DNA of 64,000 bases, from positions 1 to 64,000 of the forward strand of contig MKUE01000005.1 in the NCBI GenBank assembly GCA_001897675.1, given 5' to 3'. The translations under genes were made by a program, and so were the position numbers. Shown here piece by piece: positions 7,300 to 59,323 of the stretch. This stretch comes from Thiobacillus sp. 65-1059. Lineage in GTDB: Bacteria; Pseudomonadota; Gammaproteobacteria; Burkholderiales; Thiobacillaceae. Each line of letters begins with the position of its first letter. Position 1 is the first letter of the stretch. The notes beneath the pieces were generated by a model. That model saw only the letters and a program-made list of their open reading frames with translations, made no database searches and was not told where the DNA came from.

Positions 7300-7327
7300 C
7301 TGTTCGCTGTAGTGGGGTGTTCGCTTA

Positions 7328-7431
7328 ACCACTGACCGTTGGCCGGGGGTTGCCCGGCAGCTAGTCACTTTTCTTGGCGAGACAAGAAAAGTAACTTGCC
7401 GCCGGGCAACCCCCGGCCAACGGCCAGTGGT
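7328..7431. repeat. long inverted repeat, 2 x 49 bp
   Basis: Arms 7328-7376 and 7383-7431 are complementary at 45 of 49 positions and are separated by only 6 bases. The arms contain GTTGGCCGGGGGTTGCCCGG and CTTTTCTTG. No open frame of note lies inside. It could form a very stable cruciform or RNA hairpin, or be a non-autonomous mobile element of the MITE/REP class. Confidence 0.85.
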
Positions 7432-7474
7432 CCCGCAAAGCCAGTAACTACTCAGTGGTGCTTCGTGCCTAAAC

Positions 7475-9448
<1,974 letters not shown>

Positions 9449-32845: not shown

Positions 32846-32860
32846 GCTTGCCGCAATCGT

Positions 32861-32890
32861 AAAAAAGCCGGGAAGACTCCCGGCTTTTTT
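32861..32890. terminator. bidirectional intrinsic terminator
   Basis: Stem GCCGGGA / TCCCGGC with loop AGAC, flanked by six A on the left and six T on the right. It lies between the convergent SCP2-like and marR genes and can serve both. Confidence 0.9.
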
Positions 32891-32961
32891 ACGTCGCTAC
32901 ATCAGGGGATGTTGCCAGGCAAACGACCGGAAACCGGTTCGGCAGATCCTTCACCGCTCGC

Positions 32962-48999: not shown

Positions 49000-49093
49000 G
49001 GAGACGTGGCCGAGTGGTTGAAGGTACTCCCCTGCTAAGGGAGCATGCGGGCTTAAACCTGCATCGAGGGTTCGAATCCCTCCGTCTCCGCCA
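49000..49093 (+). tRNA. tRNA-Ser (anticodon GCT)
   Basis: A 94-base tRNA with a long variable arm: acceptor GGAGACG/CGTCTCC, anticodon loop CTGCTAA (GCT), T arm GGTTCGAATCC, discriminator G and encoded CCA. A TACAAT -10 element at 48982-48987 lies 12 bases upstream. Confidence 0.96.
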
Positions 49094-49140: not shown

Positions 49141-49154
49141 GCGCAACCTTCAAA

Positions 49155-49231
49155 GCGCCCGTAGCTCAGCTGGATAGAGTACTTGGCTACGAACCAAGGG
49201 GTCAGGAGTTCGAATCTCTTCGGGCGCGCCA
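49155..49231 (+). tRNA. tRNA-Arg (anticodon ACG)
   Basis: A 77-base tRNA: acceptor GCGCCCG/CGGGCGC, D arm AGCTCAGCTGG, anticodon stem CTTGG/CCAAG with loop CTACGAA (ACG, read as ICG), T arm AGTTCGAATCT, discriminator G, encoded CCA. Confidence 0.96.
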
Positions 49232-49240
49232 AAATACCAG

Positions 49241-49273
49241 AAAGGCCGGTTCCATCAAGGGGCCGGCCTTTTT
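49241..49273 (+). terminator. intrinsic terminator after tRNA-Arg
   Basis: AAAGGCCGG / CCGGCCTTT stem of 9 pairs with a 13-base loop, followed by further T. Begins 10 bases after the tRNA. Confidence 0.85.
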
Positions 49274-49676
49274 GCATTGCGGCCGCGGGGAGTGGCTCCG
49301 ACGCCAAACGCCTGATATCGAAAACGCAAACCGCCCCACCAGAACCGGCCCAGGCGTGTTTGCGGAACGCCCGCACAGCAAACGGTTGCGGCACGCCCGG
49401 CACCGCAGTTCATCTCCTGGCGCACCCATTCAAAAGACCCGCAGCGTTGCGGGTCTTGTTCGTTTGCACGGCCTAAATCTTCATTAACCTCCGGCACGGC
49501 AACGCTTGCGCCACGCGCAGCACGGCTGCTCACCGTCCCTGTGCGCGCCCCGATCATCGGCCGGCAATCCGCTTCCGCCGGATCGCCCGATCCGCCCCTT
49601 GCTCCATGGAAGCGCCTTTCGCACCTTGGCAGCGCGAAATCACGCAGGCAGACGCGATAGCGGTTAACGGCCATGC

Positions 49677-49714
49677 GTTAACAATAAACGCACACTTAAC
49701 TGTTTATTGTTAAC
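49677..49714. promoter_or_regulatory. perfect 13-bp inverted repeat, likely sigma-54 activator site
   Basis: GTTAACAATAAAC (49677-49689) and GTTTATTGTTAAC (49702-49714) are exact reverse complements separated by 12 bases. The right arm ends 62 bases before the -24 element, a usual position for an enhancer. A diverged version lies upstream of the sigma-54 activator gene (59293-59323), which points to that protein as the binder. Confidence 0.7.
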
Positions 49715-49776
49715 AAAAAACATCTCGCCCATCGCACAAAAAACACAATCTCATTAAAAATCAAAAACATAAAAAC

Positions 49777-49793
49777 TGGCACGACTATCGCTT
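49777..49793 (+). promoter_or_regulatory. sigma-54 (-24/-12) promoter of ncgABC-nirK
   Basis: TGGCACGACTATCGCTT: the -24 box TGGCACG is perfect and the GG and GC are exactly 10 bases apart; the -12 box reads TCGCT against TTGCW. Transcription would start near 49803, about 60 bases before the chosen ncgA start. Confidence 0.8.
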
Positions 49794-49863
49794 ACCAGGG
49801 TGCGTGTGAACTGATCGATTCAATGTCATGAAAAACACTCGACCGCTTGAGAAGGAAACGCCG

Positions 49864-50919
49864 ATGCCACAAAACTCCACCGCATTCACCGCTGCATCCC
49901 ATCTGAAGAACATGGCTTTCGCCCTTGCCGTACTGGCGGCGCCCACTGCGAGCTGGGCGGAAAAACGGACGTTCGACATGACGATCGAAGACACCAGAAT
50001 CATGCTGGTGGACAAGCAGGCGTTCCACACCTTCGCCTTCAATGGCCAGGTTCCCGGACCGCTGGTCCACGTCAAGGAAGGCGACGAGGTCACGGTCAAC
50101 GTCAACAACCTCACCACCCTGCCGCACACGATCCATTGGCATGGCTTGCTGCAACGCGGCACCTGGCAGCAGGACGGGGTGCCGGACGTCACGCAGATGG
50201 CGATCAAGCCCGGCGACAGCTTCACTTATAAATTCGTGGCCGAGCCTTCCGGCACCATGTGGTACCACTGCCACGTCAACGTCAACGAGCACGTGTCGAT
50301 GCGCGGCATGTGGGGCCCCTTCATCGTGGTCCCGAAAAACCCCAATCCGATCGAGAAGAAAGTCACCAAGGATTTCATCATGATGCTGTCGGGCTGGGAC
50401 ACCAAATGGGCGTCCAAGCCGGGCGAAGGCGGGGTGCCGGGGGACGTGTTCAACTACTTCACCATCAACGGCAAGGCCTTTCCCGATTCCCAGCCGCTGC
50501 GCGTGAGCCGGGGCGACGTGATCCGCATCCGCCTGATCGGCGCCGGCGAACTGACCCACGCCATCCATATCCACGGCCATGTCTTCAAGGTGGCGTTCAA
50601 GGACGGCCACGCACTGCCCTATCCCTACGATGCCGACACCATCATGGTCGGTCCTGGCGAGCGCTACGACCTCATCCTCACCATGGACAACCCCGGACGC
50701 TGGGCGATTCACGACCACGTGGATGTCCATACCGTCAATGGCAGCAAGCCGATGGGCGGCGTGATGACGGTCATCGAATACAACGAAATCAACCACAACG
50801 ACCCGCTCTACGCCTGGAAAGGCAAGCAGTTCGTCCCCGATTTCTACTATGAGGAATCGCTGAAAAAGCCCTACGGCATGCACGACGCAGCCGTGTTCAA
50901 GGGACAGGCCATTCAATAA
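49864..50919 (+). CDS. ncgA: two-domain multicopper oxidase (NcgA-like)
   Basis: 351 residues with a signal peptide (ends about TASWA). Copper motifs: HWHG, YHCHVNVNEHVSMRGM (type 1 ligands Cys136, His and Met in domain 1), THAIHIHGH, and HDHVDVH near 283-289. Domain 2 has Asp284 where a type 1 Cys would sit, so the blue copper is only in domain 1 (type C two-domain oxidase). Its place before two cytochromes and nirK matches ncgA of the Nitrosomonas europaea nirK operon. ATG 49864 is chosen because AGAAGGA precedes it; ATG 49828 has no ribosome site. Confidence 0.85.
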   Translation: MPQNSTAFTAASHLKNMAFALAVLAAPTASWAEKRTFDMTIEDTRIMLVDKQAFHTFAFNGQVPGPLVHVKEGDEVTVNVNNLTTLPHTIHWHGLLQRGTWQQDGVPDVTQMAIKPGDSFTYKFVAEPSGTMWYHCHVNVNEHVSMRGMWGPFIVVPKNPNPIEKKVTKDFIMMLSGWDTKWASKPGEGGVPGDVFNYFTINGKAFPDSQPLRVSRGDVIRIRLIGAGELTHAIHIHGHVFKVAFKDGHALPYPYDADTIMVGPGERYDLILTMDNPGRWAIHDHVDVHTVNGSKPMGGVMTVIEYNEINHNDPLYAWKGKQFVPDFYYEESLKKPYGMHDAAVFKGQAIQ

Positions 50920-50931
50920 GCGAAAGGATCA

Positions 50932-51627
50932 ATGATGAATCGACACCTCCTGGCCGCATTGGGGTTGGGGCTTATCGCCGGCCCGGCACTTGCCGCCGAC
51001 GGCATCGGCGCCGGCCTCCTGAAGTCGCAATGCATCGGCTGCCATGCCATCGCAAAACCGGAAAACACCAGTCTCGACCGCCTGTGGGAACGGAAGGGGC
51101 CGGACCTTTATTACGCGGGCAGCAAGTTCAACAAGCCCTGGCTGGAAAAATGGCTGCAGAACCCGGTGCGCATCCGCCCGGCCGGCGAGCTTTACGCCCG
51201 CCATGTGAAAGGCGGCACCAAGGAAGACGTGGTGGACGAGTCGGGCATGGCGCCTCATCCCAAGCTGCCCAAGGCGGATGCCGAAGCGGTTGCCGAAGCG
51301 CTCATGGCGCTTGTCGCCCCGGCCGAACTGGTGAGCAAGGGGGCATTCAAGGGCGAAAAAGTCAGCATGGCGATGGGGGGCATGTTCTTTGGCAAGCTGC
51401 GTGGCTGCGGTGCGTGCCATATGGCCAAACCCGGCTTTGGTGGCGCGTCCGGCGCCGAGCTCTATACCGCCGGCGAGCGTCTGCAGGGGGATTACATCTA
51501 CAGCTACATCAAGAACCCGCAGCAGTTCGATCCGCGCATCTGGATGCCCACGCTCAATCTTGCCGAGCCCGATCTGCAGCGGCTGACGGGCTACATCCTT
51601 CAACTCGGCGCAACGGAGGCCAAATGA
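50932..51627 (+). CDS. ncgB: diheme cytochrome c (NcgB-like)
   Basis: 231 residues, signal peptide to about PALAA. Two heme sites, CIGCH (about residue 34) and CGACH (about 159), each start a cytochrome c domain; distal Met candidates follow (ESGMAPHP and WMPTLNL). A periplasmic electron carrier, probably feeding NirK or the oxidase. It is 12 bases after ncgA and its TGA overlaps the next ATG. Confidence 0.85.
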   Translation: MMNRHLLAALGLGLIAGPALAADGIGAGLLKSQCIGCHAIAKPENTSLDRLWERKGPDLYYAGSKFNKPWLEKWLQNPVRIRPAGELYARHVKGGTKEDVVDESGMAPHPKLPKADAEAVAEALMALVAPAELVSKGAFKGEKVSMAMGGMFFGKLRGCGACHMAKPGFGGASGAELYTAGERLQGDYIYSYIKNPQQFDPRIWMPTLNLAEPDLQRLTGYILQLGATEAK

Positions 51628-52022
51628 TGACGAATAGCAGGCAACTCGCTTCCACGTTTTCCCTGGCGGGGCTCGCCCTGGCTTCCTGTTTCATGCTGCC
51701 GGCCAATGCCGCTGCCGCGGACGAGCAGTACGCCAAGGCTGCGCGCAATTACGACACCTATTGCGCCCAGTGCCACGGCATCAACCGCAACGGCCGCGGC
51801 ATCAACAGCCGCGACATGTCGGTCCAGCCGCGCGACCACACCGACGCCAAGGGCATGGGCGACATTCCGGAAAACGAAATCCTCAAGGTCATCAAGGAAG
51901 GCGGCCTGGCGGTGAACAAGTCGGTGCTCATGCCCGCCTGGGGCAATGTGATGAGCGACACGGAAATCAGGGAAATGGCGGCGTATCTGCGCCATGTGTG
52001 CAACTGCGGTTCAGGTAAATAA
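51624..52022 (+). CDS. ncgC: monoheme cytochrome c (NcgC-like)
   Basis: 132 residues with signal peptide (to about ANAAA). One heme site CAQCH (about 47-51) and a distal Met in VLMPAWGNVMSD. The late CNCGSG is not a heme motif. Likely a small electron donor to NirK. ATGA overlap with ncgB; nirK follows 17 bases later. Confidence 0.87.
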   Translation: MMTNSRQLASTFSLAGLALASCFMLPANAAAADEQYAKAARNYDTYCAQCHGINRNGRGINSRDMSVQPRDHTDAKGMGDIPENEILKVIKEGGLAVNKSVLMPAWGNVMSDTEIREMAAYLRHVCNCGSGK

Positions 52023-52039: not shown

Positions 52040-52975
52040 ATGAAACAAAGAAAACTGATGGGCCTGGCCCTGGCTGGATTGACGGCATTGTCATTGCTGG
52101 CATTCCAGGCCCAGGCCAAAACGGTGAAGGTCACGCTGCATGCGACGGAGGTGGACTTGCCGATCGACAACAAGGGCACGATGTACAAAACCTGGACCTT
52201 CGACGGCAAGGTGCCCGGCCCGGTGGTGCGCGTCACCGAGGGCGACACGGTGGAATTCACGCTGATCAATGACAAGAGCAGCAAAAACTCCCACTCGATG
52301 GACTTTCACGCGGCCAGGGTGGATGTGGTCAAGGATTTCGGCTCCATCAAGCCGGGCGAATCCAAGACCTTCACCTATACGGCGGACTACCCGGGCGTGT
52401 TCTTCTACCATTGCGGTTCCGATCCGATGATCCAGCACATCGCGCGCGGCATGTTCGGCGCGATCATCGTCGATCCCAAGGATCCGAAAGCCATGCCCAA
52501 GGCCGACCGCGAGTACGTGATCGTCCAGTCCGAGCTCTACGCCAACCCGGACGCCAAGGAAGACATGATGGCGAACAAGTGGAGCAACGTCATGTTCAAC
52601 GGCGGCATCTTCAAATACGATCCGGTGCATGACCCGGCCGCGACCCGCTGGCTGCAGGCCAAGCCCGGCGAGCGCGTGCGCATTTACTTCGTGAACGCTG
52701 GCCCCAACGAGTTCTCTTCCTTCCACCCCATCGCCGGCATCTGGGACAGGGTCTACGCGAGCGGCAATCCGAAAAACGTCCAGCACGGCCTGCAAAGCTT
52801 CACCGTCGGCCCGGGCGACGCCGCCACCTTCGATCTGATTTCGCCGGTGGAGGGCGCCAACGCGATCGTCACGCATTCGCTGAAAGGCGCGCTGACCGGC
52901 GCGATCGCGGTGCTGATGTACAGCGATGACGCCGATCCGAAAATGGGCCGCGGCGAGCAGATCCTCGTGCGATAA
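52040..52975 (+). CDS. nirK: copper-containing nitrite reductase
   Basis: 311 residues, signal peptide to about AQA. Type 1 copper ligands are in YHCGSDPMIQHIARGMFG (Cys125), type 2 ligands and the catalytic Asp in NSHSMDFHAA, and the catalytic His in FHPIAGIWDR. It reduces nitrite to nitric oxide in the periplasm as a trimer. The sequence is of the short two-cupredoxin kind found in ammonia oxidisers. ribosome site AAGGAG upstream. Last gene of the sigma-54 operon; a hairpin follows. Confidence 0.94.
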   Translation: MKQRKLMGLALAGLTALSLLAFQAQAKTVKVTLHATEVDLPIDNKGTMYKTWTFDGKVPGPVVRVTEGDTVEFTLINDKSSKNSHSMDFHAARVDVVKDFGSIKPGESKTFTYTADYPGVFFYHCGSDPMIQHIARGMFGAIIVDPKDPKAMPKADREYVIVQSELYANPDAKEDMMANKWSNVMFNGGIFKYDPVHDPAATRWLQAKPGERVRIYFVNAGPNEFSSFHPIAGIWDRVYASGNPKNVQHGLQSFTVGPGDAATFDLISPVEGANAIVTHSLKGALTGAIAVLMYSDDADPKMGRGEQILVR

Positions 52976-53094: not shown

Positions 53095-53388
53095 ATGAAT
53101 TGCAAACTTATATACAAGATGCTCACGGGCATTTTGGCGCTCTGCTTGTTGCATGCCGGGGGCATCGGCCTTGCATCCGCTGCGCAACCCGCTGCCGCGC
53201 ATGCAGCGGACGGCAGCGCCGCCGGCAGGACCGGCGTTGCCGCCAACGGCCGGCTGGACCCGCTGTCGCCAACCAACGCCGGGAAGGGCTGGACCTGCCC
53301 GATGCACCCCGAGGTGCACAAGCACGAGCCGGGCAAATGTCCGATATGCAAAATGAATCTGGTGAAGGCGAAAAGCCAGAACAGCTAG
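53095..53388 (+). CDS. small exported heavy-metal-binding-domain protein
   Basis: 97 residues with a signal peptide (to about GLASA). An Ala/Gly-rich linker is followed by the metal-binding motif WTCPMHPEVHKHEPGKCPIC, i.e. CPMH plus CPxCxM, the same domain found at the N-terminus of the CusB protein encoded 0.1 kb downstream. It may hand Cu(I) to the efflux pump, in the role CusF has elsewhere, though it is not a CusF homologue. Confidence 0.8.
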   Translation: MNCKLIYKMLTGILALCLLHAGGIGLASAAQPAAAHAADGSAAGRTGVAANGRLDPLSPTNAGKGWTCPMHPEVHKHEPGKCPICKMNLVKAKSQNS

Positions 53389-53490: not shown

Positions 53491-54807
53491 ATGACAAGGC
53501 CATTCGCCAGGCTGCGCCGTTTCGGCCTGCTGCTGGTCATGGCTGCCGGCGCGGCCGCCAGCGGCTATTACGCCGGACAACGGCCGCACCATGACGCCGT
53601 CCGCACGCTGCCGTCCGCCCATGCGGAGGGCGGCCTCGACCGCCTGGACGAGGGGGTGCCCGCGAAGAAGCTTTGGGTATGCCCGATGCACTCGCACATA
53701 CTCCAGGACCACGCGGGCTCCTGTCCCGTTTGCGGCATGGATCTGGTCGAGTCCGGCGGCACGCAGGGGCACGACAGCGGCGGCGTTCAGGTGGATGCGG
53801 CCTCGTTGCAGCGGCTGGGCGTCAGGCTGGCGAGCGTGGAGCCCCAGGAACTCAGCCGCGAGGTGCAAACCTACGGCAACGTGGCGATCGACGAATCGTC
53901 GATCCGCAACGTCAGCCCCAAGGTCGATGGCTGGATCCGCAAGCTGCACGTCACTGCCGTGGGGCAACCCGTTCGCGCCGGGCAAGTCCTGTACGAGATC
54001 TATTCGCCGGAGCTGGTGCAGCGCCAGCGCGAATACATCGAACTGCTGCAGCGGCGCGATCAACTGTTGCAGCGCATGACCGAACTGTCCGGGCAGAACG
54101 CCCAGGTGGCGGCCAGCCTGGCGCGGGAGCGGATTCGCAGCCGCGAACGGTTCGGCCACGCCGACGTCGGCGCAGACATCCTCGACAGGATCGAAAAAAC
54201 CCACCGCACCGTGGATGTGGTGGCCGTGCGCGCGTCCGCCTCCGGTTTCGTCACCCAGATCGGCGCGCGCGAGGGCAGCTATGTCGGCCCGGCGACCAAT
54301 CTGCTTTCGCTCGCGGATACCGCCTCGGTCTGGATCGACATCGTGCTGTATCCCGATCAGCTGGCCTGGGTCAGGGAAGGCGACGAAGCGACGGTCAGGC
54401 TGCCGCACTCCGACGAGCCCTTGCTCAAGGGCCGCCTGAAATTCGCCGGCCCGACGCTGGACAATGCAAGCCGCACCGTGCGGGCGCGGCTTGTCGCAGA
54501 CAACGCGCGGCAACGGCTGCGGCCCGGCTCCTTCGTCGATGTCGTCGTCGCCGCCCGCCCGCACCAGGCGCTGGCGCTGCCGCGCTCCGCGGTGATGCGA
54601 ACCGGCAAGGGCAACATGGTCATGCTCGCCCGCGGCAACGGGCACTTCCTCCCGTTTCCCGTCGAGACCGGCATTGAAAGCGGCGACCTGATCGAAATCA
54701 CGGAGGGGCTGCAGGAAGGCGCGCAGGTTGCCGTGAACGGCCAATTCCTGCTGGATGCCGCCGCGTCCCTGAGCGACGCGGCGCAGCGCATGCAGGGCGA
54801 CCGCTAG
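53491..54807 (+). CDS. cusB: copper/silver efflux adaptor CusB with metal-binding domain
   Basis: 438 residues. N-terminal membrane anchor (about 9-30), a heavy-metal-binding domain with CPMH at Cys64 and CPVCGM at Cys78/Cys81, then the adaptor body (barrel-sandwich about 125-280, with VSPKVDGWIRKLHV), beta-barrel and membrane-proximal domains. It joins the CusA pump to an outer-membrane channel and passes metal to it. It ends 2 bases before cusA. No cusC-type channel gene is present here. Confidence 0.9.
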   Translation: MTRPFARLRRFGLLLVMAAGAAASGYYAGQRPHHDAVRTLPSAHAEGGLDRLDEGVPAKKLWVCPMHSHILQDHAGSCPVCGMDLVESGGTQGHDSGGVQVDAASLQRLGVRLASVEPQELSREVQTYGNVAIDESSIRNVSPKVDGWIRKLHVTAVGQPVRAGQVLYEIYSPELVQRQREYIELLQRRDQLLQRMTELSGQNAQVAASLARERIRSRERFGHADVGADILDRIEKTHRTVDVVAVRASASGFVTQIGAREGSYVGPATNLLSLADTASVWIDIVLYPDQLAWVREGDEATVRLPHSDEPLLKGRLKFAGPTLDNASRTVRARLVADNARQRLRPGSFVDVVVAARPHQALALPRSAVMRTGKGNMVMLARGNGHFLPFPVETGIESGDLIEITEGLQEGAQVAVNGQFLLDAAASLSDAAQRMQGDR

Positions 54808-54809
54808 GC

Positions 54810-57800
54810 ATGGTACAGCGCCTGATCGAGTGGTCGCTGCGCAACCGCTTGCTGGTGCTGCTGGGCACCCTGCTGCTGGCGGGATGGGGGGGTTATTCCG
54901 CGCAGCACATGGCGCTCGACGCCATCCCCGACCTGTCCGACACGCAGGTCATCGTCAAGACCGGCTACGCCGGCCAATCGCCGCAGGCGGTGGAAGACCA
55001 GGTGACCTTCCCGCTTGCCTCGGCGCTGCTGTCGGTGCCCGGCTCCACCGCGGTGCGTGGTTTTTCCATGTTCGGCGAGTCCTACATCTACATCATTTTC
55101 AAGGAAGGCACCGACCCTTACTGGGCGCGTTCGCGGGTGCTGGAATACCTGAGCCAGGTGGCGTCGCGCCTGCCCCCGGGCGTTACCCCCACGCTCGGGC
55201 CGGACGCTTCCGGCGTCGGCTGGGTATTCGAATACGCGCTGGTCGACCGGCACCACCGCTACGACGCCGACCAGCTGCGCGCCACCCAGGACTTCTTCCT
55301 GAAATACGAATTGCAGAGCCTGCCCGGCGTGGCCGAAGTGGCCAGCGTGGGCGGCATGGCGCGCCAATTCCAGATCGAGGTGAATCCGAACCGGCTGGCG
55401 GCCTACGACCTCACGCTGGACAAGGTAGGCCAGGCCGTGCGCGACAGCAACCAGTCCGGCGGCGGTTCGATCGTGGAGATGGGACATGCCGAGTACATGG
55501 TCAGGGCGCGCGGCTACCTCAAGACGCTGGACGATTTCCGGCAGATTCCGCTGGGAACGGACGCCGAGGGAATCCCGGTCCGGCTGCAGGACGTGGCGCA
55601 TATCCAGACCGGGCCGGAAGTGCGGCGCGGCGTGGCCGACCTCGACGGCGAAGGCGAGGTCACCGGCGGCATCGTGGTCATGCGCTACGGCCACAATGCG
55701 CTGGAAACCGTGGAGCGCGTCAAGGCCCGCCTCAAGGAACTCCAGACGGGCCTGCCGCCCGGCATCGAACTGGTGGTCACGTACGACCGTTCCGGCCTGA
55801 TCAAGCGCGCCATCGACAACCTGCGCAGCAAGCTGGTGGAAGAATCGCTGGTCGTCGCCCTGGTCTGCCTGCTGTTCCTGTTCCACCTGCGCTCCTCCCT
55901 GGTGGCGGTGGTCACCCTGCCGGTCGGCATCCTGGCCGCGTTCATCCTCATGAAGCAACAGGGCGTCACCGCCGACATCATGTCGCTGGGCGGCATCGCG
56001 ATCGCCATCGGCGCCATGGTGGATGGCGCCATCGTGATGATCGAGAACATGCACAAGCATCTCGAGCGCGCCGGCCCCGGCTGCGACCATTGGGAAGTGG
56101 CGCGGGCGAGCGCGGTGGAAGTCGGCCCCGCGCTGTTCTTTTCCCTGCTGGTCATCACGGTTTCCTTTCTGCCGGTGCTCATGCTCGTCGGCCAGGAAGG
56201 CAAGCTGTTCGTTCCGCTCGCCTACACCAAGACCTATGCCATGGCGGCCAGCGCCGCCCTGGCGGTGACGCTGACGCCGGTATTGATGGGGTATTTCATC
56301 CGCGGCCGCATCACGGCGGAACACCGCAACCCGCTCAACCGCATCCTGCAGGCGCTTTACCGTCCGGCCCTGCTGGCCTCCCTCAAGCGGCCCAAGACTG
56401 TGCTGCTGCTGGCCGTGCTGCTGCTCGCCAGCGTGGCCTGGCCGGTTTCCCGCCTGGGCAGCGAGTTCATGCCGCCGCTGTATGAGGGCGACCTGCTGTA
56501 CATGCCCACCACGCTGCCCGGCGTGTCGGTCGACGAGGCGGCGCATATCCTGCAGATCACCGACCGCCTGATCCGCCAGATGCCCGAAGTGGAGCGCGTA
56601 TTCGGCAAGGCCGGGCGTGCCGACAGCGCCACCGACCCGGCGCCGCTGTCCATGCTGGAAACCACGATTCTGCTCAAGCCCAGAAGCGAGTGGCCGGCCG
56701 GCGAAACCGTGGAACAGCTGATCCAGAAGCTGGACCGGACGGTGCGGCTGCCGGGACTGACCAATTCCTGGGGCTATCCAATCCGCACCCGCATCGACAT
56801 GCTGTCCACCGGCATCCGCACCGCGGTCGGCATCAAAATCACCGGCCCCGACCTGAATGGCATTGCCGCGCTGGCGGAAACGCTCGAGCGGGTATTGAAG
56901 CAGGTTCCCGGAACGCGCACGGTATTCGGCGAGCGCGTGACCGGCGGGCGCTATCTGGACATCGATGTCGACCGCGCCCAGGCCGCGCGCCACGGCGTCA
57001 CGGTGGCCGACGTCCAGCGCCTGGTGCAGAGCGCCATCGGCGGAGAAAACATCAGCACCGTGGTGGACGGACGCGAGCGCTATTCCGTCAACCTGCGCTA
57101 TCCGCGTGCCCTGCGCGACTCCATGGAAGCCATGGCCGCCAGCCGGGTCACGACCCCGGCCGGCATCCAGGTACCGCTCGGAACCCTGGCGAAGCTGAGC
57201 ATCAGCGACGGGCCGGCCGAGATCAAGAGCGAGAACGGGCGGCTTGCCGGCTATGTCTACGTCGACATGGAGGGGCGCGATCTGGGAGGCTATGTCGCTG
57301 CCGCCAGGCGGGCCGTCGAAACGCAGGTCAGGCTGCAGCCGGGCTACGCCATCGCCTGGTCGGGGCAGTACGTGAACATGCAGCATGCCAGGGCGCGGCT
57401 GCAATGGGTCATCCCGTTTACCCTGCTGCTCGTTCTGCTGCTGCTTTACCTGCATTTCCGCCACCCCGGCAAGGTGCTGCTGGTGGCCATCTGCCTGCCC
57501 TTCTCGCTGGTGGGCGGTTTCTGGCTCACCTACTGGCTGGGCTACAACCTGTCTGTCGCAGTGGGGGTCGGGTTCATCGCGCTGGCCGGGGTGGCGGCGG
57601 AATTCGGCGTGGTCATGCTGCTGTATCTCGACAACGCCATCAAGGAATCGCGGCAGGCCGGGCGCCTGACCGACCACGCCGCGCTGCGGCAGGCGATCGT
57701 TCAGGGGGCGTTGCTGCGCGTGCGGCCCAAGATGATGACGGTGGCGGTGATCGTGGCCGGCCTGCTGCCCGTCATGTTCAGCGACGGCGCCGGCTCCGAT

Positions 57801-57914
57801 GTCATGAAGCGCATTGCGGCACCGCTGGTGGGCGGCATGCTGACCGCGCCGCTGCTATCGCTCTTCGTCATCCCCGCCCTGTACTGGTTGTGGCACCGGC
57901 GCCAGCCGGTTTAG
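54810..57914 (+). CDS. cusA: copper/silver RND efflux pump CusA
   Basis: 1034 residues, HME-RND family. The proton-relay region is GAMVDGAIVMIENMHKHLE (TM4). The three methionines that bind Cu(I)/Ag(I) in E. coli CusA (573, 623, 672) are present at 565 (LLYMPTTLPG), 615 (PLSMLETTI) and 664 (IDMLSTGI), with identical spacing, which favours monovalent copper/silver over zinc or cobalt. The 3' end overlaps the convergent regulator by 4 bases. Confidence 0.94.
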   Translation: MVQRLIEWSLRNRLLVLLGTLLLAGWGGYSAQHMALDAIPDLSDTQVIVKTGYAGQSPQAVEDQVTFPLASALLSVPGSTAVRGFSMFGESYIYIIFKEGTDPYWARSRVLEYLSQVASRLPPGVTPTLGPDASGVGWVFEYALVDRHHRYDADQLRATQDFFLKYELQSLPGVAEVASVGGMARQFQIEVNPNRLAAYDLTLDKVGQAVRDSNQSGGGSIVEMGHAEYMVRARGYLKTLDDFRQIPLGTDAEGIPVRLQDVAHIQTGPEVRRGVADLDGEGEVTGGIVVMRYGHNALETVERVKARLKELQTGLPPGIELVVTYDRSGLIKRAIDNLRSKLVEESLVVALVCLLFLFHLRSSLVAVVTLPVGILAAFILMKQQGVTADIMSLGGIAIAIGAMVDGAIVMIENMHKHLERAGPGCDHWEVARASAVEVGPALFFSLLVITVSFLPVLMLVGQEGKLFVPLAYTKTYAMAASAALAVTLTPVLMGYFIRGRITAEHRNPLNRILQALYRPALLASLKRPKTVLLLAVLLLASVAWPVSRLGSEFMPPLYEGDLLYMPTTLPGVSVDEAAHILQITDRLIRQMPEVERVFGKAGRADSATDPAPLSMLETTILLKPRSEWPAGETVEQLIQKLDRTVRLPGLTNSWGYPIRTRIDMLSTGIRTAVGIKITGPDLNGIAALAETLERVLKQVPGTRTVFGERVTGGRYLDIDVDRAQAARHGVTVADVQRLVQSAIGGENISTVVDGRERYSVNLRYPRALRDSMEAMAASRVTTPAGIQVPLGTLAKLSISDGPAEIKSENGRLAGYVYVDMEGRDLGGYVAAARRAVETQVRLQPGYAIAWSGQYVNMQHARARLQWVIPFTLLLVLLLLYLHFRHPGKVLLVAICLPFSLVGGFWLTYWLGYNLSVAVGVGFIALAGVAAEFGVVMLLYLDNAIKESRQAGRLTDHAALRQAIVQGALLRVRPKMMTVAVIVAGLLPVMFSDGAGSDVMKRIAAPLVGGMLTAPLLSLFVIPALYWLWHRRQPV

Positions 57915-59272
57915 ACGGTAATCTGCCTGAGCCGCTTCCATAAGGTGGTGCGCGACATTCCCAGCCGGCGTGCCGTCTCGGCCTTGTTCCCGCCGGTTTC
58001 GGCGAGCACCCGGGCAATGATTTCGGCTTCGTTTACAAGCTGCTGCTGCGGGCGGTAATAGGGCCGCGCCAGCAACGGCTCCGGCGCCGCAACGCCGGGC
58101 GCGGGCGGCGCAACATATTCGATCTCGGGCGGGAAATGCTGCGGCTGGATGACCGGGCCATCCGCGTGCACCAGCGCATATTCGAGCGCATTGAACAGCT
58201 GCCGGATATTCCCCGGCCAGTCGTAGGCTTCGAGGGCAAACAGTGCTTCATGGGCGAGCCGCATATTGTCCCGCTTGTAGCGCTTTGCCAGATCGCCAAG
58301 CAATTTGTTGGCGAGCATGGAAATGTCTTCCTTGCGCTCGCGCAGCGGCGGAACATGGAGAGGAAGCACGCGCAACCGGTAGTAGAGGTCTTCCCTGAAT
58401 CCGCCGCGCTCGACCATTGACGCCAGATTCCGGTGCGTCGCCGCGATGACGCGGACATTCACCGGGCGGGCGTGGTTCTCGCCCAATCGCACCACCTCTT
58501 TTTCCTGCAACACGCGCAGCAGCTTGACTTGCGTGCCCAGCGGAATTTCTCCGATCTCGTCCAGCAGCAGCGTCCCCCCCTCGGCAGCCTCGAAGCGGCC
58601 GATTTTTGCCACGGTCGCACCGGTGAAAGCGCCCTTGGCGTAACCGAACAATTCCGATTCGAGAAGACTTTCGGGAAGCGACGCGCAATGCACCGGGATG
58701 TAAGGCCCCTTGCAGCGGTCGGAATTGTCGTGCAGCGCCTTGGCGACCAGTTCCTTGCCGCTCCCGCTCTCGCCGGTCAGCAGCACGCTGGCTTTGCTCG
58801 GCGCCGCCCGCAGAATTTGCGAATAAAGCTTCTGCATCGCGGGGCCATGGCCGACCATGCTGCCCAGCTGCAGACGTTCCGTGACTTTCTGTTCCAGCTC
58901 CGCTTCGTGCGAGCGGTCTCGCAAAATGATCGCGCAGGACAGCGGCAGGTTTTCCGACGGCGGCAGCAATCTGGCCCACATCCGCAGGAATACGGAGGTG
59001 CTGTCCGGGCGCTGCAGCACAATATCCTGAATGACGTCGCCGGCCTTCCAGTCCTGGGTCAGCGCACATCTCCCCCGGTTTTCGCACGCCTCGGCGCATC
59101 CCGTCCCCTTGAAAATGCTGGGGCAGAGCAGATTGACCAGATTCTCGCCTTCACGCCCGACCATCTGTGTGGCCGCCCGGTTGGCCGCCAGCACTTTCCG
59201 GTTCTTGTCCAGAAACAGCACCCCCTCTTCCAGGCTATCCAGAAACAGATTGAGCATGGGAATCGTCATCAT
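57911..59272 (-). CDS. sigma-54-dependent activator with cysteine-containing PAS domain
   Basis: About 453 residues. PAS domain (about 5-120), AAA+ domain with Walker A GESGSGKE, the sigma-54 contact loop GAFTGA and Walker [13 protein letters not shown], and a C-terminal Fis helix-turn-helix ([20 protein letters not shown]). The PAS holds Cys50, Cys59, Cys63 and Cys69 (C-x8-C-x3-C-x5-C), a possible iron-sulfur or redox site. No receiver domain, so it senses directly. AAGGTGG lies 8 bases before ATG 59272; GTG 59281 is the alternative. Probable activator of the ncgABC-nirK operon. Confidence 0.9.
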
Positions 59273-59292
59273 GTCATCCACCTTCGTTCACA

Positions 59293-59323
59293 GTTAACGT
59301 AAAAGGTAACGTTTATTATGAAC
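59293..59323. promoter_or_regulatory. diverged copy of the ncg upstream inverted repeat
   Basis: GTTTATTATGAAC (59311-59323) matches GTTTATTGTTAAC at 11 of 13 positions; GTTAACGTAAAAG (59293-59305) matches the other arm at 9 of 13. The pair ends 20 bases upstream of the activator start, a position that would allow autoregulation. Confidence 0.5.

Follow-up and report, generated by a model that had tools for sequence, protein, structure and literature searches.

Based on the sequence comparisons presented here, the ncgABC-nirK operon of Thiobacillus sp. 65-1059, together with the HMBD and cusBA genes behind it, is very likely a sigma-54-dependent unit governed by a dedicated activator encoded next to it; this activator would act at a pair of operators upstream of ncgA, would regulate its own gene through a second pair, and would have replaced the divergent nsrR gene and NsrR box that accompany the operon in close relatives. 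Replacement of NsrR repression by a sigma-54 activator is the best reading of the comparative evidence; the sites, their conservation, the neighbouring activator gene, an rpoN gene and a reciprocal NsrR pattern can all be read directly from the DNA. The stretch analysed (64,000 nt, contig MKUE01000005.1) is called the window below, and its features are collected in Table 1. Sigma-54 control of ncgABC-nirK, with the inverted repeat as enhancer, had been proposed in a preliminary description of this DNA and is now supported by comparison with other genomes; the activator gene, which also lies inside the window, was absent from that description.

Table 1. Features of the ncg region in the window
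Feature	Coordinates	Strand	Basis or remark
tRNA-Ser	49000-49093		5' of ncg promoter
tRNA-Arg	49155-49231		5' of ncg promoter
Terminator-like hairpin	49434-49457	+	1 found against 2.4 expected in shuffles
Operator pair, exact 13-12-13 bp inverted repeat	49677-49714		Putative upstream activator site of ncgA
-24/-12 sigma-54-type element TGGCACGACTATCGCT	49777-49792	+	Correct GG-N10-GC spacing; score 21
ncgA, multicopper-oxidase-like protein	49864-50919	+	Pfam Cu-oxidase_3/_2
ncgB, c-type cytochrome	50932-51627	+	Pfam Cytochrom_C / Cytochrome_CBB3, weak
ncgC, c-type cytochrome	51624-52022	+	Pfam Cytochrome_CBB3
nirK, copper nitrite reductase, N. europaea type	52040-52975	+	PDB 4kns, 525.5 bits
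Small heavy-metal-binding-domain protein	53095-53388	+	Pfam HMBD
cusB-like periplasmic adaptor	53491-54807	+	Pfam HlyD_D23, HMBD
cusA-like RND heavy-metal efflux pump	54810-57914	+	TIGR00914, 1222.8 bits, above cut-off
Sigma-54 activator gene	57911-59281	-	Pfam PAS models, Sigma54_activat (230.7 bits), HTH_8
Operator pair at the activator's own gene, GTTCATAATAAAC-N12-GTTAACTGTGAAC	59286-59323	-	Pair pattern match

The first arm of the repeat upstream of ncgA, GTTAACAATAAAC, occupies 49677-49689 and its exact reverse complement 49702-49714, with a gap of 12 nt; a further 62 nt (49715-49776) separate the repeat from the -24/-12 element, whose position predicts a transcript start near 49803. Both the exact 13-bp repeat 62 bases upstream and the correctly spaced element in front of ncgABC-nirK had been described before, and their coordinates are confirmed. 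When the 200-bp AT-rich stretch was dinucleotide-shuffled 2000 times, an exact 13-bp repeat with a gap of at most 30 arose once; 1000 shuffles of the 700 bp around it gave none. Such repeats occur at three places in the whole window (32858, 48056 and 49677), as against a mean of 0.1 and a maximum of 2 in 20 shuffled windows; the one at 32858-32893, with arms of at least 13 bp and a short centre, is probably a hairpin terminator. An additional repeat, GTTAACAAAAAAC at 49709-49721, was rejected as a conserved site, its GTTAAC core reading GTGAAC in genome G478. Between the operator and the -24 position, an ATCAA-N4-ATA stretch (49760-49771; by eye also in G451 and G478) faintly resembles an IHF site. 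The -24/-12 element was scored by a matrix, with TGGCAYR-N4-TTGCW as the consensus. On both strands of the window, matches scoring at least 20 number 11 against 19.5 in shuffles, and those scoring at least 21 number 3 against 3.95, neither count being above chance; significance of the match by itself was therefore rejected, and it is the conservation of its position in relatives that raises the element above chance. The hairpin upstream might conceivably insulate the ncg promoter from the tRNA genes.

The genes behind this control region follow the order known from N. europaea (multicopper oxidase, cytochrome, cytochrome, NirK). ncgA probably starts at 49864, which is preceded by a Shine-Dalgarno-like AAGGA (by eye), and not at 49828, the start of a longer open reading frame. 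The nirK product scores 197.7 bits against TIGR02376, below the cut-off of 296.3; its structural match, PDB 4kns, is presumably the N. europaea enzyme. Judging from the gene spacing, the operon probably extends across the HMBD and cusBA genes, and the activator gene lies tail to tail with cusA at its far end.

The activator is a protein of 448-456 residues (the true start is uncertain, near 59257-59272) with a PAS domain, an AAA+ domain carrying GAFTGA and a Fis-type helix-turn-helix. It thus has the Sigma54_activat domain, the GAFTGA motif and the DNA-binding domain of a bacterial enhancer-binding protein of the NtrC family, and the window genome also encodes RpoN (464.6 bits, cut-off 277.35). 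Among named genomes, the nearest relatives of the activator gene are records of Thiobacillus. Its PAS domain contains four cysteines (Cys45, Cys54, Cys58 and Cys64). This C-x8-C-x3-C-x5-C pattern is found in all 60 activator records collected, duplicates included, and at all 54 distinct activator loci, and the four residues are invariant in an alignment of 42 PAS sequences. A structural model of the domain (pLDDT 81.8, pTM 0.74) has a PAS fold resembling LOV and heme-PAS domains generally; profile and fold searches match heme-PAS (DosP) and other sensor PAS domains and do not single out one cofactor. The C-terminal helix around SRTTLWKR is nearly invariant across the family, as would fit a single conserved operator. 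Among the 60 records, two of Ferrovaceae type (L152, L154) matched no GAFTGA-type motif; divergent -24/-12 elements and operators are present at both.

Members of the NtrC family activate transcription by DNA looping and ATP-driven opening of the promoter. Since GAFTGA and rpoN are both present, the same course is predicted here: the activator would bind the two 13-bp operators upstream of ncgA, loop to sigma-54 RNA polymerase at the -24/-12 element and, by hydrolysing ATP, open the polymerase for transcription from about 49803. The second operator pair, at which no -24/-12 element was recognised, is proposed as a putative autoregulation site through which the activator may control its own gene.

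The distribution of these elements among close relatives carries most of the argument. Of 117 Thiobacillaceae genomes searched, 12 contain ncgA, eight the activator PAS domain, and five both (G000, G478, G451, G449 and G482). In all five, a -24/-12 element lies at -85 to -87 from the ATG equivalent to 49864, with a score of 21 in four of them and a weak 18 in G482. The search for the same repeat upstream of ncgA in related genomes, which the preliminary description had suggested, found the pair in four of the five, 62-65 bp 5' of the -24/-12 element and at the equivalent place in G478, G451 and G449; no ncgA operator was recognised in G482. In G449, the pair (GTTCAGAGTGAAC, N11, GTTCATTGTGGTC) is retained, while the remaining upstream DNA has, by eye, diverged. 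None of the five activator genomes has an NsrR box above chance, by the consensus used, or an nsrR gene in the upstream flank searched (1.5 kb; 0.9 kb in G478, where the contig ends). An NsrR box at ncgA of the window was rejected, the best match (12 of 22 letters) being at chance level, and the only NsrR relative found in the window genome is one nsrR-like gene (C135), which lies on another contig.

The reverse holds for the seven ncgA genomes counted as lacking the activator, three of which are 83-89% complete. Each has a divergent nsrR gene and an NsrR box matching 18-19 of 22 letters (0 of 200 shuffles in each case); none has the operator or a -24/-12 element scoring at least 19, and score-18 matches occur at other positions in three. 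The earlier expectation that the wiring in the window would differ from NsrR control is borne out by these relatives. Of the eight ncgA loci examined in seven more distant genomes, seven have an NsrR-like box of 16-19 letters out of 22 (L072, with 14, is at chance level) and none the operator, L013 offering only 148 bp of upstream sequence; L033 has one score-19 -24/-12 match, at -342. In G347 and G488, two NsrR-like genes per genome were seen, one of the G347 pair being divergent from ncgA.

Within the window genome (2.9 Mb in 143 contigs), the 38-bp pair pattern has only two sites, those of Table 1. The single arm, with two mismatches allowed, is found at nine places, three of them at ncgA and one just 5' of the activator gene; the reversed-arm control is found at 12. 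When 399 genomes of the order were searched, pair matches appeared in 20. Those with no more than one mismatch are confined to the window genome (two sites), G243 and G062 (one each, directly 5' of the activator gene); the remaining 17 genomes have matches at the three-mismatch level, at which the reversed control also matches (about 44 genomes, by eye). Activator orthologues in this set were identified in G243 (84%), G062 (82%) and G079 (63%), the next by E-value being at 42%; the full-length search (1e-60) was unspecific, with sigma-54 activators of every kind in 376 of the 399 genomes, and since at most four candidates per genome were scored, orthologues may have been missed. The PAS part alone made a cleaner query. 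In a set of ten genomes, nine operator-pair sites occur in six, each directly 5' of ncgA or of the activator gene, and the reversed pattern gives one match each in three. The pair is present at the orthologous activator gene in G243, G062, G451, G478 and, at two mismatches, G488; the activator's own operator was not recognised in G449 and G482. These results make it highly improbable that the repeat is a hairpin or the site of an unrelated regulator of FNR/DNR or NsrR type that resembles the activator's site by chance: two other places in the window do have exact 13-bp inverted repeats, but the genome-wide pair search leads only to ncgA and the activator gene, the presence of the site tracks that of the activator, and the NsrR-box match does not rise above chance.

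The activator family elsewhere provides the operator consensus. Its 54 distinct loci comprise 49 from a scan of named genomes, the window and four regions from further genomes; six duplicates were dropped from the counts (L105, L106, L065, L108, L109 and L066, which repeat L112, L113, L114, L115, L116 and L133). The consensus unit is GTTCA-N3-TGAAC, 13 bp long, of which the window arms are degenerate copies. It lies roughly 40 to 95 bp before the activator start and is frequently present two or three times, with a period of about 13 or 25 bp. At least nine of its ten letters are matched within 110 bp at 34 of the 49 loci outside the ncg group (shuffles: mean 0.35, maximum 2) and at one of the five ncg loci. 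A divergent -24/-12 element scoring at least 19 lies within 220 bp of the activator gene at 44 of the 49 non-ncg loci, as against 1 of 49 on the same strand and a mean of 1.7 (maximum 6) in shuffles. None of the five ncg-type activator genes has one, as would be expected if the promoter function now resides at ncgA and the gene-side operator serves self-control. The gap between operator and -24, at the 39 loci with a recognised operator, is 62-66 in 19, 52-55 in 6, 76-78 in 7, 87-90 in 6 and 108 in one, and the 62-65 found at ncgA falls in the commonest class of the divergent promoters. The gaps of 76-78 and 87-90 are longer than this class by roughly the length of one operator unit or two, as might result from an inner unit degenerating until it was no longer recognised at the threshold.

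A less favourable reading would have the ncgA operators act mainly as repressor sites, or persist as relics, with ncgABC-nirK transcribed from a sigma-70 promoter that escaped recognition. The chance-level score of the -24/-12 match alone and the lack of a recognisable operator in G482 are compatible with it. However, a consensus scan from 49141 to 49972 found no sigma-70-like promoter, operator, element and spacing are kept in G449 in spite of its diverged surroundings (by eye), and most other activator loci have a like layout; we consider this reading quite improbable.

The genes beside the activator point to nitric oxide metabolism. Its neighbours are sNOR-type genes at 26 of the 54 loci (24 divergent, 2 downstream), cNOR genes at three and ncg-nirK at five; at the other 20, no reference target gene was recognised at the cut-offs used, apart from a few single matches, some of the contigs being short. 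The sNOR-type set consists of subunit II, subunit I, SenC and orf1, not all of which are present in each locus. It was called by 36-52% identity and gene order relative to G063, a Nitrosomonas-like genome, and the set norSY-senC-orf1 known from N. europaea (PMC4940428, PMC6967387, available text) also underlies the identification; the role of sNOR is described as unsettled in the available text of PMC6967387. In the cNOR clusters, NorB is confirmed (PDB 3o0r, 763 bits) next to a NorQ-type gene, and norD is suggested by a VWA domain and its place. In G488, a sixth genome from this genus, the activator gene is transcribed divergently from sNOR-type genes (L116), and ncgA had no match. The L064 product (7306-8487), presumably NnrS-like, its neighbours of 167 and 242 aa and those small secreted proteins that were examined gave no Pfam or NCBIfam match. 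At many loci (L125, L110, L111, L143, L153, L155, L140, L141, L160, L149, L145, L124 and L127-L129), the first gene directly 3' of the divergent -24/-12 element encodes a small, signal-peptide-like protein of about 80-235 aa in which a motif DPLxxSFxR ... DPLxxAV..AL recurs by eye; those of L153 and L140 have no Pfam or NCBIfam match, and this protein may be a conserved, undescribed partner of the activator regulon. In Aromatoleum (L118-L123, L126, L159), TTGAT-N4-ATCA-like boxes, which we take to be of FNR/DNR type, were seen by eye about 100-125 bp before the activator start, and the gene may be under anaerobic control there.

Because the recognised targets share NO metabolism, the signal may be nitric oxide, or nitrite, perceived through the four PAS cysteines and perhaps an Fe-S cluster. 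We tentatively put forward, as a possibility short of probable, that the family is an undescribed class of nitrogen-oxide sensors in which the four cysteines of the PAS domain bind an NO-reactive Fe-S cluster or metal. Such a class would be the sigma-54 equivalent of NsrR and separate from NorR with its GAF domain; it would control sNOR and cNOR across many Pseudomonadota and would have displaced NsrR at nirK in the Thiobacillus group. An unlikely alternative signal is copper, with the four cysteines binding Cu(I) and switching on a copper operon (multicopper oxidase, NirK, HMBD, cusBA). The conserved cysteines, the cusBA and HMBD genes in the operon, and the heme-copper-oxidase-like nature of the sNOR-type targets with their SCO1/SenC gene would all suit copper sensing. 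Yet a close cusA relative (at least 1627 bits) is confined to the five ncg loci among the 54, two further loci holding just a 24%-identical pump, and three activator loci are in cNOR (norCB) clusters, cNOR being an enzyme that contains no copper. It also counts against copper that an NsrR-type box precedes the operon in genomes lacking the activator, and that the NsrR of N. europaea is sensitive to nitrite (PMC6967387, available text).

The activator tree places the ncg-type proteins in one group (8 rows, 97/99) with an sNOR-linked protein from Thiobacillus and two cNOR-linked ones of Sulfuricella type; the activator therefore probably served NO-reductase genes before it was recruited to nirK. 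The five activator-carrying rows do not form one clade in the NcgA tree (three changes, two of them forced by starred branches), so that the swap was not a single clean event; the tree suggests repeated exchange or recombination, with replacement of NsrR by the activator as the presumed direction.

One bacterial family thus appears to hold one nirK operon under two opposite controls, NsrR repression and sigma-54 activation. A sigma-54 promoter is silent without its activator, and the swap would consequently make the operon strictly switched. Now that an operator of 13 bp and likely targets (sNOR, cNOR and nirK) can be assigned to the regulator family, which is also present in cultured Aromatoleum strains, direct tests of how NO- and N2O-forming steps are controlled come within reach. 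We regard the finding as sound at the level of sequence: the window encodes a likely activator, the site matches the conserved operator of that activator, and the wiring alternates with NsrR in close relatives.

Of known systems, the NorR regulon (norVW and norAB of E. coli and Ralstonia) is similar in having an NtrC-type activator adjoining NO-metabolism genes and tandem palindromic sites 5' of a -24/-12 promoter. Membership of NorR itself was rejected (NF003451, 326.9 bits against a curated cut-off of 476). Unlike NorR, the activator has a four-cysteine PAS domain (Pfam finds PAS models and no GAF in the window protein), its target in the window includes nirK, and its operator GTTCA-N3-TGAAC, that is GT-N9-AC, differs from the NorR operator GT-N7-AC (PMC1274295, available text). 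The same text describes a single NorR site before norR2 that has no sigma-54 promoter with it, and names NorR, DNR, NnrR, HcpR and NsrR as regulators of nitrogen-oxide genes; a PAS activator of the present kind is absent among the regulators in that text. Control of nirK that is NifA-mediated and RpoN-independent is mentioned for Bradyrhizobium (PMC3916325, available text), and among the open-licence PMC matches listed, no title or abstract start refers to sigma-54 control of nirK or to this PAS activator, which is no proof of absence. The operon order ncgABC-nirK is shared with N. europaea and sister Thiobacillus; unlike their NsrR control, the window has activator and operators instead of an adjacent nsrR or NsrR box. 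Homologous activators beside nor genes (Sulfuricella type) or sNOR-type genes (Aromatoleum, Sulfuritalea and others) belong to the same family, with 41-83% PAS identity outside the ncg group, and share the operator type and a similar operator-promoter distance. At those loci the sigma-54-type promoter is usually divergent from the activator gene, whereas the operon in the ncg loci of Thiobacillus points toward the activator gene, with an operator copy of its own at the far end. Sigma-54 activator control is thus of a known kind, and what appears to be new is its use at a nirK operon, with an uncharacterised sensor family.
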